From the IMG/VR virus record IMGVR_UViG_3300021138_000061, positions 1 through 41,524 of that record: a stretch of DNA of 41,524 nucleotides. One strand, given 5' to 3'. This DNA comes from a virus. Both the position numbers and the translations under genes were made by a program. Positions 7,721 to 37,940 of the stretch are shown here, in pieces; within the stretch, counting starts at the first letter, position 1; each line of letters begins with the position of its first letter. A model generated the notes under the pieces. It was not told the DNA's origin and ran no database searches. It worked only from the letters and a program-made list of their open reading frames with translations.

Positions 7721-8092
7721 TTACCTACGCATTGTTGCAATATCTTTTGCTTCTTGATCGCTAAAAATTGGAACTGCATTTGACTTATGCATAGTACCAA
7801 TACCTTTGATCAAACTTCCTGTATAAACTGGAGCTTCTTTTTTAACACATGGACCACCAGTAAAAGGAAGACTCGGAATCTTAGGTGTCTCACGACAAGC
7901 AGGTTTTCCAAGTGAGTATACATCACTGAGTTGTTGCTTTTTGGGAGCAACAGTCTTTGTGGTATACTTCTTTAACAACTGTTCCCAACTATCTCGTAAC
8001 TCACGTTGTTTTGCATTGGGTTTTTTCTTTTTAGACTTTCCAGGGGATGTAAAAATCATTTGCATAATATAGTCATCAAAATAGTTAATCAC
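7721..8092 (-). CDS. Conserved phage hypothetical protein
   Basis: Up to 123 aa. The N-terminal half is Lys-rich (GKSKKKKPNAKQRELRDSW); the C-terminal part KGIGTMHKSNAVPIFSDQEA followed by KDIATMRR is a signature I recognise from many uncharacterised environmental phage proteins. The frame opens with GTG at 8092, 7 nt after a perfect -10 box, so a leaderless GTG start is possible. ATG at 8065 or 8059 are alternatives, but neither has a clear Shine-Dalgarno. No function can be given. The Lys-rich region could bind nucleic acid. Confidence 0.75.
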   Translation of the reverse strand: MINYFDDYIMQMIFTSPGKSKKKKPNAKQRELRDSWEQLLKKYTTKTVAPKKQQLSDVYSLGKPACRETPKIPSLPFTGGPCVKKEAPVYTGSLIKGIGTMHKSNAVPIFSDQEAKDIATMRR

Positions 8093-8099
8093 AGTATAT

Positions 8100-8128
8100 A
8101 TTATACCCTACTTTTTAATTAAAGTAAA
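8100..8128 (-). promoter_or_regulatory. sigma70-type promoter TTTACT-N17-TATAAT
   Basis: -35 TTTACT (8123-8128), 17-nt spacer containing TTAATTAAAAAGTAGGG, -10 TATAAT (8100-8105). The same spacer sequence recurs at other promoters in the window, which argues for a shared, selected element. Confidence 0.85.
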
Positions 8129-8139
8129 GCGATTTTTGA

Positions 8140-8376
8140 CTATTTTTTAGAGATATTTGACTCTCTACCATGTCCTGAAGCATATTGCATACAAATCCAG
8201 CTTGAATCACCATAGGCGCAACGAACTGCAAGAGGATCAATTCCCTTTGCGATTGCAGAGTCAATATTTCGTTCCATTGATTTTAATTCTGCATTTTTAT
8301 TGTAAGTATAACTACCAATTAATGCAAGAATTGCAAGAAGAATTGATATAATAAACACTTTATCGTTTGTAATCAT
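8140..8376 (-). CDS. Small membrane-anchored conserved protein
   Basis: A 78-aa protein. ATG 8376 is chosen because AAAGGAAC lies 5 nt before it; the first in-frame ATG (8397) lacks a site. Residues about 6-21 (VFIISILLAILALIGS) form one transmembrane helix. The following region has IDSAIAKGIDPLAVRCAYGD and a second cysteine in WICMQYA, a pattern common to small T4-like phage proteins of unknown role. The soluble part probably lies in the periplasm if the N-terminus is a signal anchor. It overlaps nothing. Confidence 0.72.
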   Translation of the reverse strand: MITNDKVFIISILLAILALIGSYTYNKNAELKSMERNIDSAIAKGIDPLAVRCAYGDSSWICMQYASGHGRESNISKK

Positions 8377-8390
8377 AAGTTCCTTTAATT

Positions 8391-8579
8391 TTACCATGTT
8401 CCGTTATCCAATACTGTTCTAACAGACAGCGGACCAACGGTAATATAAATTGCATACATAGAAGGATCAGTATCTGTTGGTTTATGAAATGAACCAGATA
8501 ATCTCCAGTGGAATGGGTTTAATGCAAAACTTACCCATATACCAGAGAATCTTACGTAATCAAGAAAGTTCTTTAACAT
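8391..8579 (-). CDS. Small conserved hypothetical protein
   Basis: A 62-aa protein with aromatic-rich segments (YVRFSGIWVSFALNPFHWR) and a C-terminus GPLSVRTVLDNGTW. Similar short proteins of unknown function occur in T4-like cyanophage-type genomes. It overlaps the 3' end of the ClpP-like gene by 20 nt, which points to coupled translation. It may associate with membranes through its amphipathic N-terminal half, but there is no clear transmembrane helix. Confidence 0.65.
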   Translation of the reverse strand: MLKNFLDYVRFSGIWVSFALNPFHWRLSGSFHKPTDTDPSMYAIYITVGPLSVRTVLDNGTW

Positions 8580-9117
8580 CGTCGCATAGTCCTAATTTTT
8601 TTGATTCGGTTGCGCTTAACCAAATATCTTGAGGTGGCAACAATACCTCTCTAATTTTTGTTTCAGATAAACCAGTACATTTTTTATAATGATTAATCAT
8701 TTTCTTAGTTGTTAAGTCAAACTCTTTAACAGTGGCAAATAATTCATGTTCTTTACCAAATGCACCCCATGAGTATTGATGACTCAAGATAGAAGTATTT
8801 GGTGTCAACAAACGATGACCCTTATCACCAGCAATAAAAATCATAAGTCCAGCTGAAGCAATCTGACCAAGACCAATTGTTCGAATTGGAATAGCAGAAC
8901 CACGCATAGTGTCGATCAAAGCAAATGCTGCATTCAAATCACCACCTGGACTTGTAATAATTAAATTAAGTAATTCTGGACGCTCTTCTGCAAAATTGGC
9001 TTCAAAGATCCACTCAACCGCAGTCTTAACGCTGGTTAGAGTAATCTCCTCCATCAGAAGAAGAAAGGAATGTTTTGATTGTTCTTCCTTGAGTTGCAGA
9101 TTCATTTTTGTCATCAT
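8560..9117 (-). CDS. clpP: ClpP-like serine protease
   Basis: About 185 aa, in the ClpP/crotonase-fold protease family. SPGGDLNAAFALIDTMR is the typical ClpP helix-turn. The nucleophile Ser lies in GQIASAGLMIFIAGD, the His in TSILSHQYSWG and the likely Asp in PPQDIWLSATES, where the family puts its third residue. ATG 9117 is chosen because GGAAAATACT precedes it with the same spacing as at gp32; a GTG 12 nt upstream is possible. The start lies 92 nt inside the upstream hydrolase gene. It could act with host ClpX/ClpA on tagged proteins or in virion maturation. Confidence 0.82.
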   Translation of the reverse strand: MMTKMNLQLKEEQSKHSFLLLMEEITLTSVKTAVEWIFEANFAEERPELLNLIITSPGGDLNAAFALIDTMRGSAIPIRTIGLGQIASAGLMIFIAGDKGHRLLTPNTSILSHQYSWGAFGKEHELFATVKEFDLTTKKMINHYKKCTGLSETKIREVLLPPQDIWLSATESKKLGLCDDVKELS

Positions 9118-9628
9118 AGTATTTTCCACTTTCTTTATAAAAAATATGTCTACCTATTACAGTAGTCTTTTCGAGTTTCCATTTTGGATTTACATAATCT
9201 GCATGATAGTATAATGCACCTTTTGTAATGTCTTTTAAATTTTCATAATTAGCATAGACATAAACTGCTACTTCTTTTGCGTCTTCATATACATCTTTAT
9301 TTTTTATAGAAGTATTTTGACAAAACCAAGAAAACTGACAAACTGAAGTTGTTTTCTGTTTAACAACCCCACATATATCTTTTGGGAATCTAGGATCCTG
9401 TGTCCTATTAAGTGTAACAAGCGCAACTGCTTCTTTACCTTCTCTGGATTCATAGCCAGCTTCATGGTAAATATTTTCAGCAAGACAATCGATTTGTTGT
9501 TGAGTTTCTTTAGTTAATTGGTTATAACTTACATCAAGCAACATCGCATCAGAAAACATATTTTTTGTTAATAATATAACGCTTAAGAATAATAATATTA
9601 TTGGTATGTATATACGGTATATACGCAT
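9026..9628 (-). CDS. Cell-wall hydrolase, SleB/CwlJ family
   Basis: A 200-aa protein. Residues 5-22 form a signal anchor. The catalytic domain follows with QIDCLAENIYHEAGYESREG, ALVTLNRTQDPRFP, ICGVV and VCQFSWFC, the standard Hydrolase_2 motifs; Glu in the YHEA segment is the probable catalytic residue. The family cleaves peptidoglycan as a transglycosylase or amidase. A strong AAGGAG site sits before ATG 9628. The last 30 codons overlap the ClpP-like gene in another frame. With the signal anchor it could reach the periplasm without a holin. Confidence 0.85.
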   Translation of the reverse strand: MRIYRIYIPIILLFLSVILLTKNMFSDAMLLDVSYNQLTKETQQQIDCLAENIYHEAGYESREGKEAVALVTLNRTQDPRFPKDICGVVKQKTTSVCQFSWFCQNTSIKNKDVYEDAKEVAVYVYANYENLKDITKGALYYHADYVNPKWKLEKTTVIGRHIFYKESGKYYDDKNESATQGRTIKTFLSSSDGGDYSNQR

Positions 9629-9644
9629 ATGATCTCCTTGTAAA

Positions 9645-9674
9645 AGAGAAAGAGAGCAAAATGCTCTCTCTCAA
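9645..9674 (-). terminator. Rho-independent terminator
   Basis: On the minus strand a GAGAGAGC stem, short loop and GCTCTCTT stem are followed by a T-rich tract (TTTCTCTTTTA). It lies between the 91-aa gene and the SleB-type hydrolase. Confidence 0.75.
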
Positions 9675-9680
9675 TCCCTA

Positions 9681-9956
9681 TCAGGTGGACTTTTTGCTAG
9701 TCTTTGTAGTATCTAGTGGGATGTTTGAAACAAAACCATTTAGGGTCTGAGCCTTGGCAATGATTTCTGCTTCGGATGGATAAGCTGGGAATCCTGGATG
9801 TTCAGGTAACTCTCCACCATTAATTTTAGCAATTTCTAACTTAGCATGCCAGCTATTGCTAATTACTTCACGTTTACCATAATAATCATCATTTAACATG
9901 TCTTTTGCCATTTTTAATAGTTCAAGACGGATTTCGAATGGTGTCATATTTGACAT
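9681..9956 (-). CDS. Conserved T4-like phage protein, function unknown
   Basis: A 91-aa soluble protein. The start MSNMTPFEIRLELLKMAKDM and the later PSEAEIIAKAQTLNGFV match a small protein seen in many marine and freshwater T4-like phages. A good AAAGGAG site lies upstream. No catalytic motif is visible. It is followed by a terminator, so it may end its own transcription unit. Confidence 0.8.
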   Translation of the reverse strand: MSNMTPFEIRLELLKMAKDMLNDDYYGKREVISNSWHAKLEIAKINGGELPEHPGFPAYPSEAEIIAKAQTLNGFVSNIPLDTTKTSKKST

Positions 9957-10035
9957 AATAATACTCCTTTGTGTTGTGTTTGTGTAATGGTGGTTTTATT
10001 GGGTTCCACCAACCCACGTGTATAATTATTTAGGA

Positions 10036-10215
10036 TTACTTCGCTTCTACTTTTTTCTTTGGAGTAGGTTTTGTACCAGAGGGTGGAGCCTTTGGAGTTT
10101 CCGCTTTTTTAGCAATAGTAGTTTTTGCTTTTGTTTCTTTCTTTGGTGCATCTGCTGCGATTGCATTAATGGCCAAATTAGCCATTAATGCTGCTAACAA
10201 TAATTCTTTTTTCAT
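10036..10215 (-). CDS. Small exported Lys/Pro/Ala-rich protein
   Basis: A 59-aa protein. The first 20 residues are a signal peptide (MKKELLLAALMANLAINAIA) with a probable cut after AIAA or IAA. The mature part is about 38 residues of Lys, Pro, Thr and Ala with almost no hydrophobic residues (KKETKAKTTIAKKAETPKAP). The start overlaps the stop of the upstream gene (ATGA), so translation is coupled. A basic periplasmic peptide may bind lipopolysaccharide, peptidoglycan or DNA; none of this can be shown from sequence. Confidence 0.75.
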   Translation of the reverse strand: MKKELLLAALMANLAINAIAADAPKKETKAKTTIAKKAETPKAPPSGTKPTPKKKVEAK

Positions 10216-10730
10216 GTTATATCCTTTATAAAATTAAAAGTAACTTCGGGATAATCGTTTTGGAGTTTATCCCAGTTCAACCTCCAATTTACTATACGCT
10301 GAAGTTCTGAATCAGGATTATGATCATAAACTAATGTATTAGTAAAACTTTCAACAGTATCCTTAAACATTGAGTCAACCCCAAATATATCAAGTTCTGT
10401 GAAATCATTTTCACACATAATTTGCGCAGCGACATGACCAGCTGAAAAGAATTCAGGAGCATCTGGCATCATATCAATAAACAAATTATTGTTTAGTATA
10501 TATTCTCTAAACTTAACTTCATCAGTCGTTCGCCATGCTTTGGTTGTAAAAAAGGCTGGACAAGAAATCAGATTAGGATCCCCTGCCCAGCGATGTATTA
10601 CGTTGCCATCAAGTATAACTGTTGCATTTACTTTAGTCCAAGGTATATTACAACCGATAATATAATTATACCCTAAATTTTCTTGAAAAGCAAATCTACT
10701 TGGACCATTGCAAACTACTGCAGCTTTCAT
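10212..10730 (-). CDS. Putative MptE/DUF115-like or glycosyltransferase-fold protein
   Basis: A 172-aa protein. The N-terminus KAAVVCNGPSR resembles the GNGPS nucleotide-binding loop of DUF115/MptE-like and related sugar-modifying proteins. The segment SAGHVAAQIMCENDFTELDI with FGVDS resembles the second half of that Rossmann-like fold. It lies in an ATGA-coupled run from the GroES-like gene to the small exported protein. A role in glycan or nucleotide-sugar chemistry is possible. The family call is tentative, since only two motifs are seen. Confidence 0.5.
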   Translation of the reverse strand: MKAAVVCNGPSRFAFQENLGYNYIIGCNIPWTKVNATVILDGNVIHRWAGDPNLISCPAFFTTKAWRTTDEVKFREYILNNNLFIDMMPDAPEFFSAGHVAAQIMCENDFTELDIFGVDSMFKDTVESFTNTLVYDHNPDSELQRIVNWRLNWDKLQNDYPEVTFNFIKDIT

Positions 10731-10993
10731 GCATCAACCACTGCAACAATAAATTCTTCTTTAATCATTACACGTTGAGCATCATCAATCTTAACGACTT
10801 GACCTTTATTCCATTCCAAATAAATTTTGTCACCAACATTAACTGCGGTAACTTCAGAACCTATTGCTAATACTGTACCTGTTTTTGAATTACGATTAGA
10901 TGTTGTTCCATCTAAAATAATTCCAGATTCAGTGGTTTGGTCAACTGCATTTTCAGCGACCAAAACCATTTTTCTCAGTGGTTTAATTTCCAT
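10727..10993 (-). CDS. GroES-like cochaperonin (gp31 functional counterpart)
   Basis: An 88-aa protein when started at ATG 10993. The N-terminus MEIKPLRKMVLVAENAVDQT and a mobile-loop region ESGIILDGTT followed by KTGTVLAIGSEV and VGDKIYLEW match GroES. The loop tripeptide Ile-Ile-Leu would bind GroEL. T4 replaces GroES with gp31 for folding the capsid protein, so this gene may do the same. There is no Shine-Dalgarno; the ATG lies next to the stop of the barrel gene, so coupling is likely. A longer frame starting 14 codons upstream lacks family support. Confidence 0.82.
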   Translation of the reverse strand: MEIKPLRKMVLVAENAVDQTTESGIILDGTTSNRNSKTGTVLAIGSEVTAVNVGDKIYLEWNKGQVVKIDDAQRVMIKEEFIVAVVDA

Positions 10994-10994
10994 A

Positions 10995-11450
10995 TTAAAA
11001 TGCGTACTTTGCGCCAACCAATACAGTTGATCCATTTAAGTTATCAACACGAGATTGTCCAGCCTGATAACGATAATCAACAGTAGCAGCAACAGATTTT
11101 GTTACTGGGATTGATACACCAGCACCAACTACGCCAGCATAGCCAGAACGATCGGAATAATATTTTGAATTTTCTTGATCAAGGTATACTGCACCAATTT
11201 TAGCAGTTAAAGTTGCAGAGCCAATTTGAGCAACATCATAACCACCAATGATACTATATTTGTTTAAACTATCTTTGCTATAACGATCAAATCCAGCAGT
11301 TGCGCTAAATTTACCAAAATGTTCACCAACAGTTACGCCATAACCTGTTTGATCATGTTTTGCGTTATCATAACTCCCAGTAACACCAACCTCAAATGCT
11401 TGGGCAGAAAATGCTGCCATTAAAGCAGCAACTAGAACTAAATGTTTCAT
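10995..11450 (-). CDS. Outer-membrane beta-barrel protein (OmpX/Ail/Lom-like size)
   Basis: A 151-aa protein. The signal peptide MKHLVLVAALMAAFSAQA is followed by alternating beta strands (FEVGVTGSY, YGVTVGEHFGKFSATAGF, YSIIGGYDVA, ATLTAKIGAVYL, AGVVGAGVSIPV, AATVDYRYQAG, TVLVGAKYAF). The final Phe is the BAM-recognition residue of outer-membrane proteins. About eight strands fit the Ail/OmpX/Lom class. In lambda, Lom is made by the prophage; here the barrel is in a lytic-type genome, next to the tmRNA and GroES-like genes. Superinfection exclusion or envelope change is a guess. AAGGAAG precedes the ATG. Confidence 0.8.
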   Translation of the reverse strand: MKHLVLVAALMAAFSAQAFEVGVTGSYDNAKHDQTGYGVTVGEHFGKFSATAGFDRYSKDSLNKYSIIGGYDVAQIGSATLTAKIGAVYLDQENSKYYSDRSGYAGVVGAGVSIPVTKSVAATVDYRYQAGQSRVDNLNGSTVLVGAKYAF

Positions 11451-11472
11451 AAATTAACTTCCTTTTTAAATT

Positions 11473-11510
11473 TAAAAATGGTAACTTATTCTGTTACGAG
11501 GAAAGTTACC
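11473..11510 (-). terminator. Hairpin at the 3' end of the tmRNA coding piece
   Basis: GGTAACTT (11480-11487 on the plus strand) pairs with AAGTTACC (11503-11510), followed on the minus strand by ATTTTTA. It may end tmRNA transcription or be a structural helix of the mature RNA. The barrel gene starts just downstream. Confidence 0.6.
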
Positions 11511-11797
11511 GAAACCCTAAGCAGTGTTTAGGCTGCTAATGCGAACAGTTCGTCGTTTGCGTTTACGTTTTTTGCTTCTTCGACCGAGTTTCCCCAATCC
11601 TAATGGCTTTCACATTGCCAAGTTGTCCACTTCTGTACTTGTTGCCCTGTCGAAACCTAGTCACCCCCATCAGAAGTATATTGCCACAGTTTCTATGTTT
11701 GCTACCGATAACTCGGTTCGTCAATATACTTTTGGTGGAGGTGGGGAGAATCGAACTCCCGTCCAGAACACTTTTCTAGTTGCTTCATACAACCATA
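11480..11797 (-). ncRNA. ssrA: Circularly permuted (two-piece) tmRNA
   Basis: The acceptor part comes first: its 3' end reads GGACGGGAGTTCGATTCTCC and then CACCTCCACCA, with CCA ending at 11733. After a spacer of 64 nt (11669-11732) the coding piece starts at 11668 with GGGGGTGACTAGGTTTCGAC, the normal 5' end of tmRNA. GGGGGUG pairs with CACCUCC, giving a seven-pair acceptor stem with G3-U70, the alanine identity pair. The tag frame lies further downstream and its stop sits in a small hairpin (CCTAA/TTAGG). This order is that of permuted genes known in alphaproteobacteria, cyanobacteria and some betaproteobacteria. Spacer removal is inferred. Confidence 0.9.
11528..11560 (-). other. tmRNA tag reading frame (ANDELFALAA)
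   Basis: GCA AAC GAC GAA CTG TTC GCA TTA GCA GCC TAA encodes ANDELFALAA, very close to E. coli ANDENYALAA and betaproteobacterial tags such as ANDERFALAA. It ends with LAA, the ClpXP/ClpAP degron. Reading could also resume at an earlier GCA (11573-11575), giving AKNVN before the tag. Confidence 0.85.
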
Positions 11798-11802
11798 TCA
11801 CT

Positions 11803-11831
11803 ATTATACATTATATAGTTTAAAATGTCAA
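11803..11831 (-). promoter_or_regulatory. Full-consensus sigma70 promoter of the tmRNA gene
   Basis: -35 TTGACA (11826-11831), 17-nt spacer, -10 TATAAT (11803-11808). It matches the consensus at all 12 positions and should start transcription near 11796, just before the acceptor piece. Confidence 0.88.
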
Positions 11832-11832
11832 A

Positions 11833-12066
11833 TTATTCTTTAACTTCTTTACCAACATCAATTACATTCCATGCACGTTCATGAAAGAAATATAGAATTG
11901 AGTTAACTACGAGCGCAAAAGAAACTACACCCAAACCAACCATCCAAGATCCTGATGCTAAGTAACCACCAATAAAATTAGTAATCGTAACAAGAATACG
12001 CCATGTAACAACTTTACCCAATGAGCGCATTGTTTTTTCATAAAATTTAGTTTTAAACAAAATCAT
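11833..12066 (-). CDS. DUF2061-family small membrane protein
   Basis: A 77-aa protein. The motif RSLGKVVTWRILVTITNFIG, then a second hydrophobic segment and YFFHERAWNVI, is the DUF2061 pattern. Two transmembrane helices are likely (about residues 22-39 and 43-60). Members occur in bacteria and in many phages, with no settled function. It ends 2 nt before the tmRNA -35 box, so the tmRNA promoter lies at the operon boundary. Confidence 0.82.
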   Translation of the reverse strand: MILFKTKFYEKTMRSLGKVVTWRILVTITNFIGGYLASGSWMVGLGVVSFALVVNSILYFFHERAWNVIDVGKEVKE

Positions 12067-12073
12067 TTTATCC

Positions 12074-12727
12074 TCAAATATTTTTTAAATTTTTGTAATC
12101 TAATCTTAACTTTCTAAACCCACCAATCCAATTGTCTCTTTTTTCTATAAACCATCTTGGATCATCATTATCAACTGCCATAATAATAACAAGTCTTCCG
12201 ATAGGAATTCCTGTTCTTTCTTCAAAAGCTACTGCATATGCTGCAGTTTGCATAAAGTAGTTATGAATGTCATCTCTATCTTTTGGTTTGCTTGATGTTT
12301 TAAAATCTATAACACTAAGTTTACCTTGGAACTCTGCGATGCAGTCAACTGTGCCAGCGACTTGTAAATGGTCAGACCATAATGGAGTTTCCAAGCAGTG
12401 GATGTTGTCAACTTGGTCAAGGAGGGGTTTGATAGAGTTGAACATTTGGAGGTCGAACATATCTGCTTCGAATAGGTTTCCTCGTAAATAGTCTTCACAA
12501 TACTGGTGAATCCTCGTTCCTCTTGCTGAGGCTCTTCCAGAGATTTTATTTGCTTCTGCTTCGCCAACTCGTTTTCTCCATTCTGCGATCCCTTTTGCTG
12601 AGTGCAGTCCTGTAACTGTCGTAACGGAGGGATAGGATTTACCCGATGGCGTTTTATATACTCTTGTGCCATCGGGGGATGTATCACGTTCAAGTTTAGC
12701 GATATCATGATGTATAAATGTTTTCAT
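12074..12727 (-). CDS. PD-(D/E)XK exonuclease, RecB/Cas4-like
   Basis: A 217-aa protein. The active-site run GTVDCIAEFQGKLSVIDFKT gives the D...DxK triad, followed by motif IV Gln in FMQTAAYAVAFEE. An upstream helix with ARGTRIHQYCEDYL supplies the early His/Glu seen in such nucleases. T4-like environmental phages commonly carry this exonuclease, likely for recombination or breakdown of host DNA. Its start overlaps the stop of the endolysin gene (TAATG). Confidence 0.82.
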   Translation of the reverse strand: MKTFIHHDIAKLERDTSPDGTRVYKTPSGKSYPSVTTVTGLHSAKGIAEWRKRVGEAEANKISGRASARGTRIHQYCEDYLRGNLFEADMFDLQMFNSIKPLLDQVDNIHCLETPLWSDHLQVAGTVDCIAEFQGKLSVIDFKTSSKPKDRDDIHNYFMQTAAYAVAFEERTGIPIGRLVIIMAVDNDDPRWFIEKRDNWIGGFRKLRLDYKNLKNI

Positions 12728-13338
12728 TAAACGTATTGAATAATCTGATTATATAATTGTTGTCGTTCATCAAGACCAAGATAACCACCATTGATAATCT
12801 TAGTCATAGTTTTAATATCACCAATATCAGCATAGTGATTAAGATTATGTGCATTCCAGAACCAAATCGCAGACATTAAAGCGAAATCTTTATCATACGT
12901 TACCCAGTCTGGGTTATCAAGTAAATTTTGCCAGTCATCAAACATATCTTGCGCAAACTTAGTATAATTGGCTTTACCAGTTAACTGAATTGGACCACGT
13001 CCACGATATTTCCAACCATCACCAGATGCTTCATCGCCATTGCCCATTCGGTTAGCATAGATTCTATTGGCAATCTTTTCTGGTTGACGAGCATATTGAT
13101 CAGCATCTCCATGGAAATGCGAACCAAAAATACCCATTAAACCTTGCGCTGAGTAATTTAAATTTTCTTCAAAGATAGCCCATCCACCTGACTCATGACC
13201 ACATTGAGCAAGAAATGCTGCAATACGATGGGGTTGATCAATACCATAATTAGGAAAAGTTTTATTCATAGAAGCAACCCAACCTTGTGGGTCTGTATTT
13301 CTAGGAAATATCTGAGCAAACTGTTCTGCTGTTATCAT
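12727..13338 (-). CDS. GH19-type endolysin (chitinase class I fold)
   Basis: A 203-aa protein started at ATG 13338, with GGAG 8-10 nt upstream. The catalytic Glu lies in AQCGHESGGW; the second family motif is FEENLNYSAQGL, and GDGWKYRGRGPIQLTGKANY is the substrate loop. The domain fills nearly the whole protein, and there is no signal peptide, so a holin is needed for release. It is the second peptidoglycan hydrolase in the window beside the SleB-like one. The start lies inside the 3' end of the upstream gene. Confidence 0.9.
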   Translation of the reverse strand: MITAEQFAQIFPRNTDPQGWVASMNKTFPNYGIDQPHRIAAFLAQCGHESGGWAIFEENLNYSAQGLMGIFGSHFHGDADQYARQPEKIANRIYANRMGNGDEASGDGWKYRGRGPIQLTGKANYTKFAQDMFDDWQNLLDNPDWVTYDKDFALMSAIWFWNAHNLNHYADIGDIKTMTKIINGGYLGLDERQQLYNQIIQYV

Positions 13339-26767: not shown

Positions 26768-27439
26768 TCAAAGTTTACAAAAAATATTTTTGTTATTCAA
26801 CATCATATACACACGTTCTGGTAAAATATCAAATGCGATTGATAATCTTGGAGTTTCTGAATTGTTTATAGATGTATCGTGCATAACGAAACTTGGAAAC
26901 AAAACCATATCCCCATTAACATTTGGTATTCTTTGCCACATCTGCTCAAGGTAAGGTGATCTATAATTGGTAGTTGTGTTTTCTGCATTTATACAAAGAT
27001 TACCAGAAAGATATGCGCTTGAATAGGTTTTTGATTCAAGATGGCCATTAGTATGATTGTGCGCTTCTATCTTTCTACCTTTTCGAACTATATTAATCCA
27101 TCCATGAATATAAACTTCTTCATCTGGTAGTTTCATTCCAGTCACCATATCTACATATGATTTCTTTATAAAATTTTTTAGACCAATGATTTCTTCATCA
27201 TCACTTTCAAAGAAATTATAATGTGGTATACTAGCACTCACCCAATTATTAAGAGTTTCTCCTGGTTTCATAGTTCCATATTTTGAGTAGTCATCTTTAC
27301 TCAAATCCAGTATAGATTGTTCTTTATTTAAAATTATCTCAATGAATTTATTTGAATCAGAGTAATTTGTTTTAAAGATTGGTAAAGTCCATTCTGGTAT
27401 AAAGTCAGAGTTCGTTGGGTAATTTAAAAATATTAGCAT
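26768..27439 (-). CDS. 2OG-Fe(II) oxygenase (type A)
   Basis: A 223-aa protein and the last gene of the oxygenase operon. HNHTNGHLESKTYSSAYLSG, the distal LFPSFVMHDT and Arg in PRLSIAFDIL give the usual iron and 2-oxoglutarate residues. It is the closest paralogue in the window to 30391-31047 (shared SGNLCI/SGNICI and SIAFDI blocks). Its start overlaps the stop of the previous gene (TAATG). Confidence 0.82.
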   Translation of the reverse strand: MLIFLNYPTNSDFIPEWTLPIFKTNYSDSNKFIEIILNKEQSILDLSKDDYSKYGTMKPGETLNNWVSASIPHYNFFESDDEEIIGLKNFIKKSYVDMVTGMKLPDEEVYIHGWINIVRKGRKIEAHNHTNGHLESKTYSSAYLSGNLCINAENTTTNYRSPYLEQMWQRIPNVNGDMVLFPSFVMHDTSINNSETPRLSIAFDILPERVYMMLNNKNIFCKL

Positions 27440-28089
27440 TATCCATACACTTTATTGTTATTATCTTCCAAAAGTTTAGTATTCATTCTAACACTGGAAA
27501 AATTTATACTCATCACATATCTTGATTCATCAACTTGATTTTTTTCTGTTTTGTGGTATATCCATCCAGGAAACATAATTATATCACCAGTCTTTACTGG
27601 ACCTATGTGATACCAAATACTATCACCAGCAGTTCCTCTAATTTGCATTCCATGAGAACCTCCCCAATGATATTCCATTGGATCTCTTACCATTAACGTG
27701 CCACTATTTTCTGGAACATGGATATAATAAACTACTACAAAGTTTGCTCCCTTATGATTGTGTTCATCTGTCCATGCTCCTTTTGGATGTTCATTCATCC
27801 AACTATCTGTTGGTCTATATGGAATGCCATTAATTTGCCAGCGAGTAAGCACTTCGTCTAGAATAGAATCTAAATGATTTCTGAAACCTTCCAGTTCTGG
27901 CCAAAGATGTGGATGATCGTGAGTAGTTCTAGAATATGACACAGAACTTTGTCCACCATCACGCTCAACATCTCCATTACCTGGAATATCTTTCTCGAAT
28001 GTTTTATATCGCTCAATCATTTTTTTGAAATCAGTCCCCAAGTAACTGTCTCTAAAAATAATTGGTGACCATGGGTCTATAATTTCCAT
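27439..28089 (-). CDS. 2OG-Fe(II) oxygenase (type B)
   Basis: A 216-aa protein. DEHNHKGANFVVVYYIHVPE holds the first metal ligands; the distal His lies in FPGWIYHKTEKN and Arg in SRYVMSINFS. A RDPMEYHWGG segment resembles the NDPR part of 15192-15794 and the IDPRGG of 31258-31950, so the three probably share ancestry. It starts 10 nt inside the carbamoyltransferase end. Confidence 0.8.
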   Translation of the reverse strand: MEIIDPWSPIIFRDSYLGTDFKKMIERYKTFEKDIPGNGDVERDGGQSSVSYSRTTHDHPHLWPELEGFRNHLDSILDEVLTRWQINGIPYRPTDSWMNEHPKGAWTDEHNHKGANFVVVYYIHVPENSGTLMVRDPMEYHWGGSHGMQIRGTAGDSIWYHIGPVKTGDIIMFPGWIYHKTEKNQVDESRYVMSINFSSVRMNTKLLEDNNNKVYG

Positions 28090-29792
28090 ATCAATTCGCT
28101 TCTTTCTGGTAAGTACAAATATTTTATTTCTGATCTACGTAGTGTATCCAGCGCATCTGTCATTGTTTCAACTAAAGGATCGCCAGCCAAGTTAAAACTA
28201 GTATTGAATAAAATTGGAACACCAGTGACTTCTTTGAATTTTGTTATCAAATTGTAGTAGTGTAAATTTTCTTCCAATGTTACTGTTTGAATACGACATG
28301 TTCCATCAACGTGGATAATTGCTGGTACAATTTCTTTCGCCTTATCTGTTGCATTTACAGCATACATCATGAATGGAGAATCTTCAAGCCCACGCATATC
28401 AAACCATTCATGAACATCTTCTTTTAAAATAGTTCCAGCAAATGGTCTATACCATTCTCTGTTCTTTATTCTATTGACAAAATCTTTACCATCCTTCACA
28501 CGTGGATCATAAAGGATAGATCTATTGCCTAGTGCTCTTGGTCCAGCTTCTGATCTACCTTGATACATTGCAATAATATTACCATCAACCAACAGATCAA
28601 CAACATCAGCATACGATACTATTTTACTAGAAAATTCATTGCAAGGCAAATCAAATTTGTAATCAGGTGGTGGACCAAGATAAAATGTTTCTTGTTTCTT
28701 TGGTTGTGAAGGAAATTTGCTATTCCAAAATTTCTTTGCCAATCCAATTGATAAACCTGCATCACTAGAAGGTGGATCAATGTATAGTTTACATCCCTCT
28801 GGTAAATGCTTTAAGTATTCGTAGTTCGCTACACAATTAAGCATATAACCACCACTGAGAACTACATTCTTACAACCACTATTATTGATGGCAGATAATA
28901 TTAAGTTTAGAACATATTTCTCAGTACCTTTTTGAACAGCATAACACCAATCCTCTTCTGGATATCGATCAAACCCAGTCAACGTAGTCATGTATATGTC
29001 TTTTGTATTTGGTAAGTACATATTTCGATCAACGTATCCATCTTCTCTGTACAAATTTAAATTTGGATTAGGTTTACCGTAAGAACTCCATCCCATTGCC
29101 TTACCACATTCCAATGAACCATGACCAAGATGAGCAGCAACTGCTGCATATAAAAATCCTGGACCAATGTGTGGTTCAAAAAAATATAGATTATTGATGT
29201 TGTAAGAATTATGTAAAAGTGGATTGTATAGTCGTTTATACAAAAGTTCAGTCTTTGATGGATATTCCATAAAATAAACAGATTCAGTTTCTACTCCAAC
29301 ATTTAAACCATGCAGTGTTCTATTAACTGACATATCATCTTCAGTTTTCATAGAATTTTGTGGTAAACGATCGTGCATTATATCATCTGACCACTGCTTA
29401 TAAGAACCACCACCATCAACAGTTACACAAACTGCTTTATCAAATCCAGAACTATAAAAAGCAGATGCCGCATGGGCATCGTGGTGTAATGTCTTTGATG
29501 GATCAGGTAATCCCTTAAAATCTCCTGTTGGGATTAAACCAAGTTTCTGACAAAGTCTGATATATGGATTTTCATTATTTCTTTTATTGGGTTCATCCAT
29601 TAACAGATAATCTAATCTATCAGTATACTTCTTCACCTCAAGAATAGCCAACATTGGCATATTCTCTGCTTTAATTCTACTTAATCTTTCTTCTTCTATG
29701 TAGAAAACAATTTCACCATTTTTCATTAAACAACAAGATCCATTGTGCATATATCCTGCAACTGAAAGAATCCAAATATCTTCTTTATTCAT
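28077..29792 (-). CDS. Carbamoyltransferase, NodU/TobZ family
   Basis: A 571-aa protein covering the full family length. The metal-binding N-terminal part has LHHDAHAASAFYSSGFD and VTVDGGG; then AMGWSSYGKP, VVLSGGYMLNCVANYEY and MYQGRSEAGPRALGNRSI followed by LYDPR; the C-terminal lobe ends GVPILFNTSFNLAGDPL. These enzymes move carbamoyl from carbamoyl phosphate to a hydroxyl. ATG 29792 has GGAA 9 nt upstream; 29801 is an alternative. It lies among eight 2OG oxygenases that could make the hydroxyl. Viral enzymes of this family acting on 5-hydroxymethylcytosine have been reported; the substrate here is unknown. Confidence 0.9.
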   Translation of the reverse strand: MNKEDIWILSVAGYMHNGSCCLMKNGEIVFYIEEERLSRIKAENMPMLAILEVKKYTDRLDYLLMDEPNKRNNENPYIRLCQKLGLIPTGDFKGLPDPSKTLHHDAHAASAFYSSGFDKAVCVTVDGGGSYKQWSDDIMHDRLPQNSMKTEDDMSVNRTLHGLNVGVETESVYFMEYPSKTELLYKRLYNPLLHNSYNINNLYFFEPHIGPGFLYAAVAAHLGHGSLECGKAMGWSSYGKPNPNLNLYREDGYVDRNMYLPNTKDIYMTTLTGFDRYPEEDWCYAVQKGTEKYVLNLILSAINNSGCKNVVLSGGYMLNCVANYEYLKHLPEGCKLYIDPPSSDAGLSIGLAKKFWNSKFPSQPKKQETFYLGPPPDYKFDLPCNEFSSKIVSYADVVDLLVDGNIIAMYQGRSEAGPRALGNRSILYDPRVKDGKDFVNRIKNREWYRPFAGTILKEDVHEWFDMRGLEDSPFMMYAVNATDKAKEIVPAIIHVDGTCRIQTVTLEENLHYYNLITKFKEVTGVPILFNTSFNLAGDPLVETMTDALDTLRRSEIKYLYLPERSELIWKL

Positions 29793-29797
29793 TTTAT

Positions 29798-30394
29798 TCA
29801 TTTCCAAAATACCCAATTAATTACAAATCTATTTTCTGATGTAACAGGATTAGAAGAAGCGTGATATCTATCTGCTTCAAATATCACTGCTCTATTTTTC
29901 TTAGGAGAAACACGCTGAGCCACTGTTAGTTTTAATGGCTCATGATTATCAGTATATTTTTCATTAAAGATAACAGTATCACCATCGCAATCATTCAAAT
30001 AATAAACCATTGTATACGTTGGACTTGGAACATCAACATGTGGTTGATTATAAAATCCCTGAAACTCTTTTTGTTGTAGTAAAATATTAAATTTAACTCT
30101 GTTACTACCACCAAGTTCTAACTCAGGAAATTTATCCTTTACTGTATAGAATATTGGTTTCAATTGTTCATATGCCCAACCAAATGTTATATTTTGTCTA
30201 AGATCGCTATCTTGTACAACGCATGATAATTGACCAGCATCTTTTACTAATGGATCATACAATAATGGTGGCGCATCTTGTTCATTAGTGTATGATGTTT
30301 TTAATGAATATTGATACGACAAATGATATTTGGCCAAATTGTAAATTGAATCACAATACGATGGGGTTAACAAATTATCAATTACTTCGATCAT
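29798..30394 (-). CDS. 2OG-Fe(II) oxygenase (type C, prolyl-hydroxylase-like)
   Basis: A 198-aa protein. QPHVDVPSPTYTMVYYLND carries HxD; then CDGDTVIFNE, the distal His in IFEADRYHASSNP and Arg in ENRFVINWVF. This is close to the P4H/phage-type short oxygenase. The stop overlaps the carbamoyltransferase region, and the start forms ATGA with the upstream gene. Confidence 0.82.
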   Translation of the reverse strand: MIEVIDNLLTPSYCDSIYNLAKYHLSYQYSLKTSYTNEQDAPPLLYDPLVKDAGQLSCVVQDSDLRQNITFGWAYEQLKPIFYTVKDKFPELELGGSNRVKFNILLQQKEFQGFYNQPHVDVPSPTYTMVYYLNDCDGDTVIFNEKYTDNHEPLKLTVAQRVSPKKNRAVIFEADRYHASSNPVTSENRFVINWVFWK

Positions 30395-34536: not shown

Positions 34537-34610
34537 TGGAGCGGAGTGAGAGAATCGAACTCTCAACAACAGATTGGAAATCTGTAGTTTTACCATTAAA
34601 CTAACCCCGC
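34537..34610 (-). tRNA. tRNA-Gly (TCC)
   Basis: Cloverleaf on the minus strand, anticodon loop TTTCCAA, T-loop TTCGATT, acceptor GCGGGGT with ACTCCGC, CCA encoded. Reads GGA. Confidence 0.93.
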
Positions 34611-34613
34611 AAT

Positions 34614-34687
34614 TGGCATCCCGACAGGGACTCGAACCCCGACCAACAGTTTTGGAGACTGGTATGCTGCCATTACACTATCGAGAT
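34614..34687 (-). tRNA. tRNA-Trp (CCA)
   Basis: Anticodon loop CTCCAAA, discriminator G73, CCA encoded. One G-U pair in the acceptor stem. The adjacent tRNA-Gly is 3 nt away. Confidence 0.93.
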
Positions 34688-34688
34688 A

Positions 34689-34886
34689 TTAAGCGTATGT
34701 ATTTAAATTTTGATCCGCGATTGTATGGACTAATTCTCCTACGTCATCATAAATTTTTGCTGTATGTGTAACATTTTCAGTTGCATGACGAGCAAAATCT
34801 AATGCTTCTTCTAGAGTTTCTAATTCATGGTTATCAATTTTTAAAAAACCATTAATCCAACGATGAATTTTTACTTTATGTTTCAT
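34689..34886 (-). CDS. Small conserved phage protein
   Basis: A 65-aa protein (MKHKVKIHRWINGFLKIDNH start, ETLEEALDFARHATENVTHT). AAAGGAAAAT lies before the ATG. Similar short alpha/beta proteins (HRWxNGF, TLEEAxxFA) occur in other phages; function unknown. It ends 1 nt before tRNA-Trp and begins where the glycosyltransferase ends. Confidence 0.68.
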   Translation of the reverse strand: MKHKVKIHRWINGFLKIDNHELETLEEALDFARHATENVTHTAKIYDDVGELVHTIADQNLNTYA

Positions 34887-35933
34887 TTATTTTCCTTTAA
34901 AATAAGTTTTCCAAATTTCTTTGGTATTTTCTGTGTAGCGTTTTAATGCTATTTGATTTAACATAACATTTAACTTTGGATGGTTATATGCGTTCTTCAG
35001 TCCAAATTTAATATCATTACTATCAGTAGGTTCACATTTACCCATAATCTGCCATGGTATTTCTTTGCTACCAATCAATGGAACACCTTGACTAATCAAA
35101 TCTGCTCCAACAATATTAAAAGTTTCAGAGAAGTTACACTGCATCCCAATGTCCATCTGTGAACATAGTTCTAAAAATTTTTCTCTAGGAGTCCATTGAT
35201 GGTTAATCATTTGATGTCCATGTTCATATAGATGCTGAAACAAGCCTTTTAAATTTGAAACCGCAGCAGCACCTTGCATTTCAATTCTACCTGCATTTAC
35301 GTGAAATCTCAACTTTTTATTAATACTATTTGCAAAATCTATTGCAGCGATTGCTTGAACTAAATGATTCTTCAATGGTCTAACTGCACCAAAGCAACCA
35401 ATATCAATATATTCTTTATCTCTGTTGATTTCTCTGCGTTTAAAATTTTGTGGGTAGAAATTTGGTAAATAAACAACACGATAATCCCAAATTCTAACTG
35501 GATTTTTAATCTTTAAAAATGTTTTTACTTCACGCAACATACGTGGCGCATTAAATGCAAGAACAACATTTTTTAACTCAGCGTAATCCCCAATCCAATC
35601 CATTGCTGGACCTTCCCCAGCCATGAATGGCAGCTCACTATGGAATCTAATGATCCATGTTACTTTTGGATGTAGTTTCTGGAGAATATTAAACTTTTGT
35701 GGAACAACCCATAATGCTTCAATAATAACATGGGTTGGTTTGTATATGCTTACTTCTCTATCAATTGAATTATTGTCAGGAACAACTACTAATTTTGATT
35801 CAATACCAATATCGTTGAGCATTGTATCCATAAATTTTGCAGAGTTGTATAACCCTGTGCTTAATCCAATATGATTATCACGTTCAACATTATAATCATC
35901 TTTACGTTTTAAAACGAATAACACTCTTGACAT
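34887..35933 (-). CDS. GT-B-type glycosyltransferase-like protein
   Basis: A 348-aa protein from ATG 35933 (three more codons possible). The N-terminal lobe has SRVLFVLKRKDDYNVERDNH and TWIIRFHSELPFMAG; the C-terminal lobe has DIGCFGAVRPLKNHLVQAIA and FSETFNIVGADLISQGVPLI, like the nucleotide-sugar site of GT4-type enzymes (E..P...A). It could modify virion or host glycans, or DNA if a modified base is made. No Shine-Dalgarno is evident. Confidence 0.72.
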   Translation of the reverse strand: MSRVLFVLKRKDDYNVERDNHIGLSTGLYNSAKFMDTMLNDIGIESKLVVVPDNNSIDREVSIYKPTHVIIEALWVVPQKFNILQKLHPKVTWIIRFHSELPFMAGEGPAMDWIGDYAELKNVVLAFNAPRMLREVKTFLKIKNPVRIWDYRVVYLPNFYPQNFKRREINRDKEYIDIGCFGAVRPLKNHLVQAIAAIDFANSINKKLRFHVNAGRIEMQGAAAVSNLKGLFQHLYEHGHQMINHQWTPREKFLELCSQMDIGMQCNFSETFNIVGADLISQGVPLIGSKEIPWQIMGKCEPTDSNDIKFGLKNAYNHPKLNVMLNQIALKRYTENTKEIWKTYFKGK

Positions 35934-36001
35934 TTTTATCATTCATAGCATTTAACATATCTCTATTTAGATAAGTTAGATTTTTTAACATTTTATTAAA
36001 C

Positions 36002-36077
36002 TGGTGCCCTTGGACGGATTCGAACCGCCCACCTACTGATTACTAATCAGTTGCTCTACCAAATGAGCTACAAGGGC
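36002..36077 (-). tRNA. tRNA-Thr (AGT), A34 at the wobble position
   Basis: Acceptor GCCCTTG with CAAGGGC, discriminator A, CCA encoded. Anticodon loop TTAGTAA gives AGT, an A34 threonine tRNA, rare in bacteria. A second Thr tRNA (TGT) lies at 39297. Confidence 0.88.
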
Positions 36078-36084
36078 AAAACAC

Positions 36085-36159
36085 TGGAGCAGGATATCGG
36101 GTTCGAACCGATGACATTTTCGTTGGCAACGAAACATTCTACCACTGAATTAATCCTGC
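36085..36159 (-). tRNA. tRNA-Gly (GCC)
   Basis: Anticodon loop TTGCCAA, acceptor GCAGGAT with ATCCTGC, T-loop TTCGAAC, CCA encoded. Confidence 0.93.
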
Positions 36160-36165
36160 ATAATA

Positions 36166-36239
36166 TGGTGGAGGATGGGAGAATCGAACTCCCATAAACA
36201 GCTTGCAAAGCTGCCGTAATCCCATTATACTAATCCCCC
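36166..36239 (-). tRNA. tRNA-Ala (TGC)
   Basis: Anticodon loop TTTGCAA; G3-U70 identity pair in the acceptor stem, discriminator A, CCA encoded. Confidence 0.94.
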
Positions 36240-36244
36240 AAAAC

Positions 36245-36319
36245 TGGTGGTGACGAGTGGATTCGAGCCACTGACCTGCTCCGTATGAAGGAGATGCACT
36301 ACCGCTGTGCTACGTCACC
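36245..36319 (-). tRNA. tRNA-Met (CAT), elongator-like
   Basis: Acceptor GGTGACG with CGTCACC, anticodon loop TTCATAC, T-loop CTCGAAT, CCA encoded. It has a normal G1-C72 pair. Its 5' end is part of the inverted repeat 36318-36503. Confidence 0.85.
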
Positions 36320-36503
36320 ATTGTTGAACGTACTGTTATGTGTTTAGTTGGCAGCTTTAAATTCCTGCCACCAGATCCTCAAGCATTTCAATCTATGGTG
36401 GGTAGCCATAAATTCTCTCCGAATAAAGGACGCTGTTTTGACTGGCGATTATCTTCCCTAACAGTTGGGATGCCCTATCTTTTGCTCACACGTTCAACAA
36501 TGG
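36318..36503 (-). repeat. Inverted-repeat unit 1 in the tRNA array
   Basis: Arms CCATTGTTGAACGT (36318-36331) and ACGTTCAACAATGG (36490-36503) are perfect complements, enclosing 158 nt. The left arm includes the 5' end of tRNA-Met and the right arm includes the CCA of tRNA-Leu(TAG). Inside lies a 21-codon frame (ATG 36416, MATHHRLKCLRIWWQEFKAA) with GGAGAG upstream. A folded spacer RNA or a processing signal is inferred. Confidence 0.7.
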
Positions 36504-36583
36504 TGCCCCAAGAGAGACTCGAACTCTCACACCGAAGTACTGGCTTCTAAGACCAGCGTGTCTACCAATTCCACCATCGGGGC
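36501..36583 (-). tRNA. tRNA-Leu (TAG)
   Basis: Class II with long variable arm, anticodon loop CTTAGAA, T-loop TTCGAGT, CCA encoded. Confidence 0.93.
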
Positions 36584-36590
36584 ATTCATT

Positions 36591-36668
36591 TGGTTGCGGA
36601 GGTTGGATTCGAACCAACGATTTCATGGCTTATGAGACCAGACGGATAGACCACTTCCATACTCCGCT
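36591..36668 (-). tRNA. tRNA-Met (CAT), initiator-like
   Basis: Anticodon loop CTCATAA. The acceptor begins AGCGGAG and ends CTCCGCAACCA, so positions 1 and 72 do not pair, the hallmark of bacterial fMet tRNA. The anticodon stem lacks the three G-C pairs of E. coli fMet, so the assignment is not certain. Confidence 0.8.
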
Positions 36669-36686
36669 ATAACTTATCTACTTATA

Positions 36687-36765
36687 TGGCTCCGCATTAG
36701 AGAATCGAACTCTACTAACCAGTGATTAACAGTCACGCCCATGCACCTTGCTCGGGTTTTGCGGA
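36687..36765 (-). tRNA. tRNA-Asn (GTT)
   Basis: Anticodon loop CTGTTAA, T-loop TTCGATT, G73 and CCA encoded. The D-arm and position 8 are unusual, with a mismatched acceptor base, so the tRNA is diverged. Confidence 0.82.
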
Positions 36766-36853
36766 ATAATTAAAATTGTGGCAGGTACGGTATCTGGTCA
36801 TTGTCTAGCCAATGACTTGCCCATGTTCCTTTTACTTTCCTTACCACAAAACT
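36766..36853 (-). other. Structured spacer between tRNA-Asn and tRNA-Asp
   Basis: 88 nt. TTGTGG (36776-36781) pairs with CCACAA (36844-36849), and an internal hairpin joins GTCATTG with CAATGAC (36797-36816). It looks like a tRNA relic or small RNA; no T-loop consensus remains. An 8-codon frame with AAGGAAC is also present. Confidence 0.35.
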
Positions 36854-36928
36854 TGGCGACTCGTAGGAGAATCGAACTCCTGTATCCACTTAGACAGAGT
36901 GGTGTAATAACCATTATACGAACGAGCC
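36854..36928 (-). tRNA. tRNA-Asp (GTC)
   Basis: Anticodon loop CTGTCTA, discriminator G, acceptor GGCTCGT with ACGAGTC, CCA encoded. Confidence 0.94.
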
Positions 36929-36934
36929 AAAAAA

Positions 36935-37027
36935 TGGTGGAGCAACTTGGAGTCGAACCAAGAATGTTTACCACGAGGGGACGGATTTACAGTCCGCCGA
37001 TGCACACGCCATAGCATCAATTGCTCC
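36935..37027 (-). tRNA. tRNA-Tyr (GTA)
   Basis: Class II variable arm, anticodon loop CTGTAAA, acceptor GGAGCAA with TTGCTCC, CCA encoded. Confidence 0.94.
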
Positions 37028-37032
37028 ATGAT

Positions 37033-37222
37033 ATTAGTTGTATTGTTTTGTTATGGATATCGTTCACCCGATATCGTTTGCTTTTATCGTTGATAACTTA
37101 TTAGTGTATCCGTCGATACGATTTCATTATCACCAACTCGCGAACCTTGATAGTCGACATCCAGTTCGTTGAGAGTGCATTATCCTGGTAGCACAGAGTT
37201 TTTCCAAAACAATACAACTAAT
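37033..37222 (-). repeat. Inverted-repeat unit 2
   Basis: Arms ATTAGTTGTATTGTTTTG (37033-37050) and its exact complement (37205-37222), 18 bp, enclose 154 nt. No tRNA and no long frame lie inside. Internal short palindromes (GATATCG/CGATATC, GTATC/GATAC) suggest a folded RNA. Spacing to tRNA-Tyr is 5 nt. Confidence 0.75.
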
Positions 37223-37227
37223 ACCAC

Positions 37228-37456
37228 ATTTAATTACACTGGGATGATTAGCAACAACCATCACCCGATGGTTAACCACGTATTCGTCATACGATTGGTT
37301 GCTTCTCACATTATGATCCAACTTTCTCCAGCGTGACCACCGTATCCACCTTTCGGTTTCGTTTCCATCTTTCGTGTAGTTTGGCGAGCGACACTCCGTC
37401 GAGTATCCTGAACTCCCAAACCACCTACTGGTTTTGGTAACCCAATGTAATTAAAT
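37228..37456 (-). repeat. Inverted-repeat unit 3
   Basis: Arms ATTTAATTACACTGGG (37228-37243) and CCCAATGTAATTAAAT (37441-37456) pair at 15 of 16 positions and enclose 197 nt. A 20-codon frame (ATG 37373, METKPKGGYGGHAGESWIIM) lies inside, without a convincing ribosome site. It abuts the CCA of tRNA-Glu. Confidence 0.68.
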
Positions 37457-37457
37457 C

Positions 37458-37533
37458 TGGTACTCGGTGGGGGAATCGAACCCCTCCTTACTGCCGTGAA
37501 AGGGCAGTGTCCTAACCGATAGACGAACCGAGC
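37458..37533 (-). tRNA. tRNA-Glu (TTC)
   Basis: Anticodon loop CTTTCAC, T-loop TTCGATT, CCA encoded. The acceptor has a G1-U72 pair and A73, unlike the usual G73 for Glu. Confidence 0.88.
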
Positions 37534-37549
37534 ACATGGTGGTTTTTCT

Positions 37550-37609
37550 TTATAGTCTGTAGCCACCAAAAATAGACTGCTGCTGTTTTGGCTGTTTAAG
37601 GTCTGCCAC
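37550..37609 (-). CDS. Possible 19-aa peptide with strong ribosome site
   Basis: GTG 37609 is preceded 7 nt upstream by GGAGGG. The frame reads MADLKQPKQQQSIFGGYRL and stops before tRNA-Glu. Few other frames this short in the window have such a site, but the length limits confidence. Confidence 0.35.
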   Translation of the reverse strand: MADLKQPKQQQSIFGGYRL

Positions 37610-37704
37610 GGATATCCCTCCACTAAGACCATTGCCCCATGCGTCCGACTTGACGTAACGACTTAGAGAGGACTTTTAGATAACATTATCAACTAAGAAC
37701 CTTT

Positions 37705-37733
37705 ATTATACGCCACTTTTTAATAAAAGTAAA
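37705..37733 (-). promoter_or_regulatory. sigma70-type promoter of the tRNA block
   Basis: -35 TTTACT (37728-37733), 17-nt spacer, -10 TATAAT (37705-37710). No start codon falls at +1 here, consistent with an RNA operon. Confidence 0.85.
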
Positions 37734-37745
37734 GCGATATTTTTA

Positions 37746-37767
37746 ATCCCCTATTGCAAGTAGGGTT
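37746..37767 (-). terminator. CCCTA/TAGGG hairpin before the promoter
   Basis: CCCTA (37749-37753) pairs with TAGGG (37761-37765). It stands directly upstream of the -35 box, as at the other promoters. The T-run is weak, so termination may be partial. Confidence 0.5.
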
Positions 37768-37778
37768 ATTTGCAAGAT

Positions 37779-37853: not shown

Positions 37854-37858
37854 ATATC

Positions 37859-37939: not shown

Positions 37940-37940
37940 A

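Follow-up and report, generated by a model that had tools for sequence, protein, structure and literature searches.

A phage that carries its own tmRNA gene upstream of a gene for a ClpP-family protease raises the question of whether the RNA serves ordinary trans-translation during infection or is paired with the protease for dedicated degradation. We examined this question with a virus record of 41,524 bases, which is taken to be a fragment and whose whole length is called the window here. The first-pass annotation had described the DNA as that of a T4-like phage, and this was borne out by genes for a tail tube protein (phrog_45), a gp2-like DNA end protector (phrog_429), and a gp32-like ssDNA-binding protein (phrog_224), as well as by 26 tRNA genes, which ARAGORN detected on the minus strand at 34,537-39,835 and whose labels span 19 amino acids, with asparagine being absent. 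In addition, 14,789 nt of the window are identical to part of the 76,565-base viral contig L235. The T4-type proteins, the tRNA genes, and this identity place the tmRNA gene on a phage and not on a host contig.

The window also encodes a NodU-like carbamoyltransferase (28,077-29,816), which scored far under the NCBIfam cut-off, and an adjoining TIGR02466-like protein (27,439-28,089; 59.6 bits against a cut-off of 62.5). Several proteins of similar size in the region from 15 to 34 kb resemble, by eye only, oxygenase-type relatives. Directly after the tmRNA gene, at 10,995-11,450, a small protein resembling outer-membrane beta-barrels is encoded (PF13505, 27.1 bits against a cut-off of 28.7); a relative (OMP) occurs in 10 of the 46 ClpP-first loci described below.

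A complete circularly permuted tmRNA gene is present at 11,831-11,474 on the minus strand, the strand having been left unstated in the first-pass annotation (Table 1). ARAGORN located a permuted tmRNA gene at c[11437,11825] and read its tag as ANDELFALAA, and covariance searches identified the gene with RF04321 (tmRNA_permuted; 11,794-11,528 on the minus strand, model positions 1-213 of 213, 128.9 bits, gathering threshold 47) and with RF01850 (beta_tmRNA; 11,845-11,473 on the minus strand, model positions 1-331 of 331, 116.6 bits, gathering threshold 84). As both models align over their whole length, the match is not one to the acceptor arm alone. That beta_tmRNA is the best clade model points weakly to the host. 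Every element of the permuted order that had been named was found: an acceptor piece with CCA and T arm precedes the coding piece, the acceptor stem forms all seven pairs (GGGGGUG with CACCUCC) including G3-U70, and the tag frame has an alanine resume codon, an LAA-type end, and a stop codon. The tag itself was read identically by ARAGORN, and its C-terminal end is ALAA. The claim of an exact sigma70 promoter was also correct, as TTGACA-17-TATAAT agrees with the consensus in 12 of 12 letters. It is the only 12/12 match among the 26 promoter-like sites at 8,000-13,000, a region that on shuffling contained a mean of 19.3 such sites of any grade. The hairpin at the 3' end could possibly also be a terminator; it is absent from the output of the terminator scan, whose loop limit it exceeds. 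Judged by this anatomy and by the comparisons below, the locus is very probably a functional ssrA gene in circularly permuted form, borne by the phage, that would serve ordinary trans-translation during infection.

Table 1. Features of the tmRNA gene and of its downstream neighbours, in window coordinates.
Feature	Position	Strand	Remarks
ClpP-family (S14) serine protease gene, 189 aa	8560..9129	-	PF00574, 101.2 bits
SleB-like cell wall hydrolase gene between tmRNA and clpP	9026..9628	-	constant neighbour, 44/46 loci
GroES/Cpn10-like co-chaperonin gene, accessory neighbour	10727..11035	-	15/46 loci
Promoter of sigma70 type, TTGACA-17-TATAAT	11803..11831	-	12/12 consensus, promoter scan
Acceptor piece, transcribed first	11733..11796	-	encoded CCA ends at 11,733; 5' end inferred from promoter position
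P2 helix, lower part	GUUGU 11789..11793 with ACAAC 11,626-11,622	-	covarying; coordinates counted
P2 helix, upper part	UGUUCUG 11764..11770 with CAGGGCA 11,649-11,643	-	covarying; coordinates counted
T arm, 5-bp stem, loop UUCGAUU	11744..11760	-	coordinates counted from acceptor end
Acceptor stem (7 bp), 3' strand CACCUCC	11737..11743	-	contains U70
Intervening segment, 64 nt	11669..11732	-	10-bp closing helix AAGUAUAUUG/CAAUAUACUU
Coding (mRNA-like) piece	11474..11668	-	3' end putative
Acceptor stem, 5' strand GGGGGUG	11,668-11,662	-	start of coding piece
Tag frame ANDELFALAA and UAA	11528..11560	-	resume codon GCA
3' hairpin, last stem	11474..11510	-	8-bp outer stem GGUAACUU/AAGUUACC, then AUUUUU; fold -10.2 kcal/mol

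Scanning viral contigs with a 27-mer of the acceptor end yielded at least 119 loci, and ARAGORN made a permuted call in 108 of the 119 matches listed and a standard call in none. A second scan with a pattern for ANDELFALAA returned 85 stretches, 74 of which were new loci. Among 69 of these new loci, there were 48 permuted calls (5 with another tag reading) and 2 standard calls, and 3 of the remaining 5 were permuted. Five loci (L174, L184, L186, L197, and L206) match the tag pattern, yet a permuted ARAGORN call elsewhere reads ESYALLHL, which reflects either two genes or a miscall. A stricter script for the order of the elements, which required six or more of the seven acceptor pairs, was applied to 189 loci (the 119 listed, the 69, and the window); it recognised the permuted order in 129 and missed 60. 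All 129 have 7/7 acceptor pairs with G3-U70, with the 27-mer leaving no freedom in the acceptor 3' strand of the first locus set; the variants GGGGAUG/CAUCUCC and GGGCCUG/CAGGUCC, which come from loci outside that set, also keep all seven pairs and G3-U70. A promoter match of at least 11/12 was found in 52 of these 129 loci, which are not independent of one another, in comparison to 0 of 129 composition shuffles.

For covariation, we aligned 31 phage sequences including the window, chosen by script from 33 proposed (IVS 50-110 nt, dereplicated), and counted on nested helices only; most of these rows had been collected with a pattern that fixes the T arm and the acceptor 3' strand. Standard pairs occupy 97.4% of the 744 pair cells, and both sides change in 14 of the 24 pairs. 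The covariation score was 0.323 compared to 0.134 in shuffled alignments, none of 500 of which reached it, and slid versions gave at most 0.089; a measure of further pair types was weaker, being attained by 8 of 500 shuffles. The helices that join the acceptor and coding pieces covary, and the U70-G3 column is kept in 31 of 31 sequences. The helix closing the intervening segment has a mean length of 9.6 bp, as compared to 6.2 bp with swapped 3' ends (73 distinct viral segments, each 50 nt or longer). As far as alignments can tell, the tmRNA pairing is thereby shown to be under selection. This covariation and the conservation of the promoter in relatives lend additional backing to the original claim of a phage permuted tmRNA with its own promoter.

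We also considered that the gene might be a functionless passenger, either recently acquired from the host or left over as an ssrA remnant of imprecise excision. There is a precedent in prophage genomes, from which ssrA fragments are known according to a citation in the part of PMC9004378 available to us. The gene of the window, however, is complete, and it has compensatory changes and a conserved promoter among its relatives. Its distribution also argues against a passenger: the 27-mer of the acceptor end, present in at least 119 viral stretches, was found in only 15 stretches of genome_contigs, 10 of which have a one-piece call (one of them also a permuted call), whereas 3 have a permuted call only and 2 have none. 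Likewise, among 300 genomes from the order of G001 (Noviherbaspirillum pedocola), the Burkholderiales, just 13 passed the beta_tmRNA cut-off. With these data, a passenger appears highly improbable.

The betaproteobacterial permuted tmRNA (RF01850), which is rare by this count, has the same gene order as the window and tags of the ANDxxFALAA or ANDxxFAIAA kind, such as ANDERFALAA and ANDEQFAIAA. It lies apart from the window in a FastTree analysis of 65 short sequences (acceptor and coding 5' end; 54 viral including the window, 11 bacterial), an unrooted tree that was made without alpha and cyano rows and from which the bacterial L144, L147, L148, and L153 had dropped out as they were missed by the motif of the script. 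The window groups with other phages in this tree. Of the bacterial rows, seven group together in a clade (support 0.91), L121, L124, and L155 are in another (0.974), and L152 stands among the phages. The phage RNA thus belongs to a phage lineage, as its tag was not found in the cellular genomes searched and beta_tmRNA matches and the 27-mer are rare there.

At 17 lower-scoring places in the genomes of the order of G001 (L156-L172), ARAGORN found one-piece genes. A permuted tmRNA together with a second, lower-scoring tmRNA place was seen for L135 (Noviherbaspirillum pedocola), L121 (a Herminiimonas MAG), L124 (a Proteobacteria MAG), and L154 (G252). The second tmRNA of G001-G003 was called one-piece with the ordinary tags ANDEAYALAA, ANDNSYALAA, and ANDETYALAA. 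In the permuted copies of this bacterial group, the tags read by ARAGORN are odd, and an LAA end is present in just one; these extra copies are possibly those of mobile elements.

The tag differs between the phages mainly in its middle part: in 141 distinct complete viral genes, the end is LAA in 132 and the start is AND in 131, and there are 35 different tags. ANDELFALAA is encoded by 28 different DNA sequences, a diversity that in part results from the construction of the tag scan, and the first codon is GCA in every one. Among the unusual or long ARAGORN tags of viral permuted tmRNAs are those of L093 (27 residues), L005 (ANDSHFLQAANA), and L079 (ADNSDYTSAQVAMAA). The ANDELFALAA pattern that matched 85 viral-contig stretches had 0 matches in genome_contigs (84,980 species according to the description of the collection); the degenerate pattern and the scan of the collection each work separately, the tag scan of genome_contigs itself being without its own positive control. 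In 61 of the 300 genomes from the order of G001, we found ANDxxFALAA, mostly as ANDERFALAA, and among the matches listed there was none with EL, AQ, or SQ as xx. The apparent absence of the tag from cellular genomes was not found in the literature searched, as represented largely by titles and the openings of abstracts.

The conservation of the tag also bears on the possibility that the phage RNA is a decoy that inhibits host trans-translation by titrating SmpB or ribosomes. None of 32 phage records, which include fragments, yielded an SmpB, whereas the same search detected it in 10 of 14 control genomes; the phage RNA would hence compete for the SmpB of the host. The TLD-only tmRNA of mycobacteriophage DS6A provides a precedent for such a role, as far as described in the portions of PMC4131195 and PMC11915505 available to us. 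However, a decoy needs no tag, and yet the tag, the GCA resume codon, and the LAA end are kept across many DNA sequences, so that we regard this role as very unlikely.

For ordinary trans-translation, the absence of SmpB from the 32 phage records means that the phage tmRNA probably employs the host SmpB, and the phage RNA is assumed to fit the SmpB, the alanyl-tRNA synthetase, and the RNase P of the host. Background knowledge on tmRNA provides each step: tRNA-processing enzymes mature the permuted precursor, the G3-U70 pair is recognised by alanyl-tRNA synthetase, SmpB and EF-Tu deliver tmRNA, and proteins with LAA ends are Clp substrates. On this basis, we infer the transcription, processing, charging, trans-translation, and proteolysis steps for the phage tmRNA as follows. 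The host RNA polymerase would transcribe ssrA from the consensus promoter of the gene itself, and folding of the precursor through the acceptor stem, the T arm, and P2 would bring the two ends together. Host tRNA-processing enzymes would then cut out the intervening segment, which would result in a two-piece tmRNA whose parts stay together through base pairing and which is charged by the host alanyl-tRNA synthetase via G3-U70. Host SmpB and EF-Tu would bring this tmRNA to ribosomes stalled on broken messages in the infected cell, and the ribosome would resume at GCA, append (A)ANDELFALAA, and be released. The tagged product would be subject to Clp-type proteolysis, in which the phage ClpP possibly takes part. 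The phage would probably supply its tmRNA early, at a time when messages are being cut by host and phage nucleases and ribosomes become stalled.

The ClpP-like gene that had been noted about 2.4 kb downstream is indeed present, at a distance of about 2.3 kb (PF00574, 101.2 bits; cut-off 20.2). In 14 ClpP representatives, the presumed catalytic residues S92, H117, and D168, a triad assigned by analogy, are invariant, and it is plausible that the phage ClpP is catalytically competent. The protein scored far under the NCBIfam cut-offs for true ClpP (67.7 of 308.6 bits for TIGR00493, 85.4 of 249 for NF001368) and also under that of the ClpP-related head maturation protease NF045542 (62.5 of 120 bits), and an AlphaFold model from 14 rows had a mean pLDDT of 51.9. 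The closest named ClpPs, with 53% identity each, are those of Synechococcus phage BUCT-ZZ01 and Sinorhizobium phage Phosso. A ClpP-family gene is present in 23 of the 32 phage records, namely 20 of the window type (95-106 bits) and 3 canonical ones (262-269 bits), and was not found in the other 9, which are possibly fragments.

The best PHROG for the phage ClpP, with 85.2 bits, is phrog_94, a head maturation protease. Each of the 13 gp23-containing records has an S77 (gp21-type) prohead protease, and 9 of these 13 also have the window-type ClpP; neither gp23 nor S77 was found in the record of the window itself. ClpP as the sole prohead protease is thus disfavoured by analogy, phrog_94 still being its best PHROG, and a head-protease role for ClpP is unneeded in those relatives because the gp23 records all have S77.

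A more far-reaching interpretation is that the phage tmRNA and the phage ClpP are paired for tagging and degradation, with the ClpP core docking to host ClpX or ClpA and with abortive phage products or host proteins as the tagged substrates that are destroyed during infection. The conserved neighbourhood is in favour of such a pairing. Starting from the tmRNA, there were 157 loci with a permuted call, and a window-type ClpP was found at 62 of them, in each case 0.9-3.0 kb downstream on the strand of the tmRNA. Starting from ClpP, we examined 78 loci from the best 80 of 592 relatives, which are therefore close ones, and 46 of them had at least 3.4 kb upstream; a permuted tmRNA lies upstream on the same strand in 45 of these 46, the sole exception in the stretch read being L301. 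Contigs already collected via the tmRNA account for 20 of the 46 loci; the tmRNA is also present on 25 of the 26 new contigs. The invariant serine, histidine, and aspartate also fit with this idea, as do the ten records that contain both the window-type ClpP and S77, in which ClpP is hence not the only candidate for the head protease.

However, the linkage is conserved synteny and not proof of a functional pair. Plain synteny can explain it because other neighbours are about as constant in the 46 ClpP-first loci, namely SleB (44), orf85 (44), orf112 (43), and orf91 (41), whereas orf172 (20), Cpn10 (15), and OMP (10) vary; these counts are lower bounds, as the crude ORF calling recovered ClpP itself in only 35. 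Furthermore, 95 of the 157 tmRNA-first loci have no window-type ClpP, including 43 with at least 3.5 kb downstream, and 9 of the 32 records have no ClpP at all. No tmRNA call was made within 7 kb of the ClpP genes of BUCT-ZZ01 or Phosso, and the case of L301 is similar within the stretch read. The tmRNA is also equipped with a promoter of its own and with a hairpin resembling a terminator, and ClpP is far under the true-ClpP cut-offs. The hinted link to ClpP is made stronger by the conserved neighbourhood but is not specific to the pair, and 23 of the 43 loci without such a ClpP nearby share ANDELFALAA, a tag that is favoured by the tag scan. Altogether, we judge a dedicated pairing to be rather unlikely. 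It is unlikely, too, that this widespread T4-like lineage runs private trans-translation, in which the two-piece tmRNA, the strong host-type promoter, and a tag unused by the searched cellular genomes would be combined with a downstream ClpP-type protease that preferentially clears or directs phage-tagged products. With regard to ordinary trans-translation, the presence of the same tag at some loci without such a ClpP nearby suggests that the phage ClpP, while it may take on part of the work, is not required.

Permuted tmRNAs in phages are not new, since two-piece phage forms had already been published: in the portions of the paper available to us, 53 of 133 unique phage tmRNA structures are two-piece, and marine or aquatic samples were the source of 50 of these 53 (Buchholz et al., 2022; PMC9004378). 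The tmRNA database update lists 79 phage sequences, according to the accessible part of PMC11915505. The Methylophilales phage Melnitz likewise has a permuted ssrA in a T4-like myophage, and its authors propose the same two functions, ribosome maintenance or tagging of host proteins (PMC9004378, available portions). As described there, the Melnitz ssrA, which has a glutamine riboswitch, was placed among alphaproteobacterial sequences, whereas beta_tmRNA is the best clade model for the window. The window further differs from Melnitz by its perfect consensus promoter and its ClpP neighbour, the term ClpP being absent from the main text of PMC9004378.

Two named phages, Stenotrophomonas phage Marzo (Menderavirus, MZ326868) and Xanthomonas phage Rb1 (PQ569993), have tmRNAs that are also permuted according to ARAGORN, with RF04321 scores of 119 and 103.4 bits, respectively, and acceptor regions about 80% identical to that of the window; a match at this position is also present in 15 additional Stenotrophomonas phage records. 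The tags of Marzo and Rb1 are longer than that of the window (VAANDDSYTVRIAA and ANDDNFRPALRLAA), the Marzo gene lies among tRNAs near ribonucleotide reductase genes, and no gene annotated as Clp was found within 4 kb of the Marzo or Rb1 tmRNA. The tmRNAs of mycobacteriophages Bxz1 and Wildcat and of Bacillus phage G are one-piece, whereas the window gene is permuted. Phage-encoded ssrA genes of these and other mycobacteriophages and of phage G are listed in the accessible part of PMC4131195, which does not describe them as two-piece. The Sinorhizobium jumbo phage AP-J-162 has a tmRNA and a Clp gene, in this case clpX and not clpP, and their neighbourhood is not stated in the portions of PMC11242549 available. 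A phage tmRNA-clpP locus, and with it the steady clpP neighbourhood of the phage tmRNA, was not found in the literature searched on permuted and phage tmRNA and ClpP, which was represented largely by titles and abstract openings.

A sizeable lineage of these phages stably keeps the permuted tmRNA gene, which is no rare passenger there, and clpP as its conserved neighbour offers a concrete partner to test. As the tag was not found in the cellular genomes searched, tagged peptides in an infected cell could be assigned by mass to the phage or the host RNA. With such a phage-specific tag, it becomes directly testable what phages rescue, or destroy, through trans-translation.
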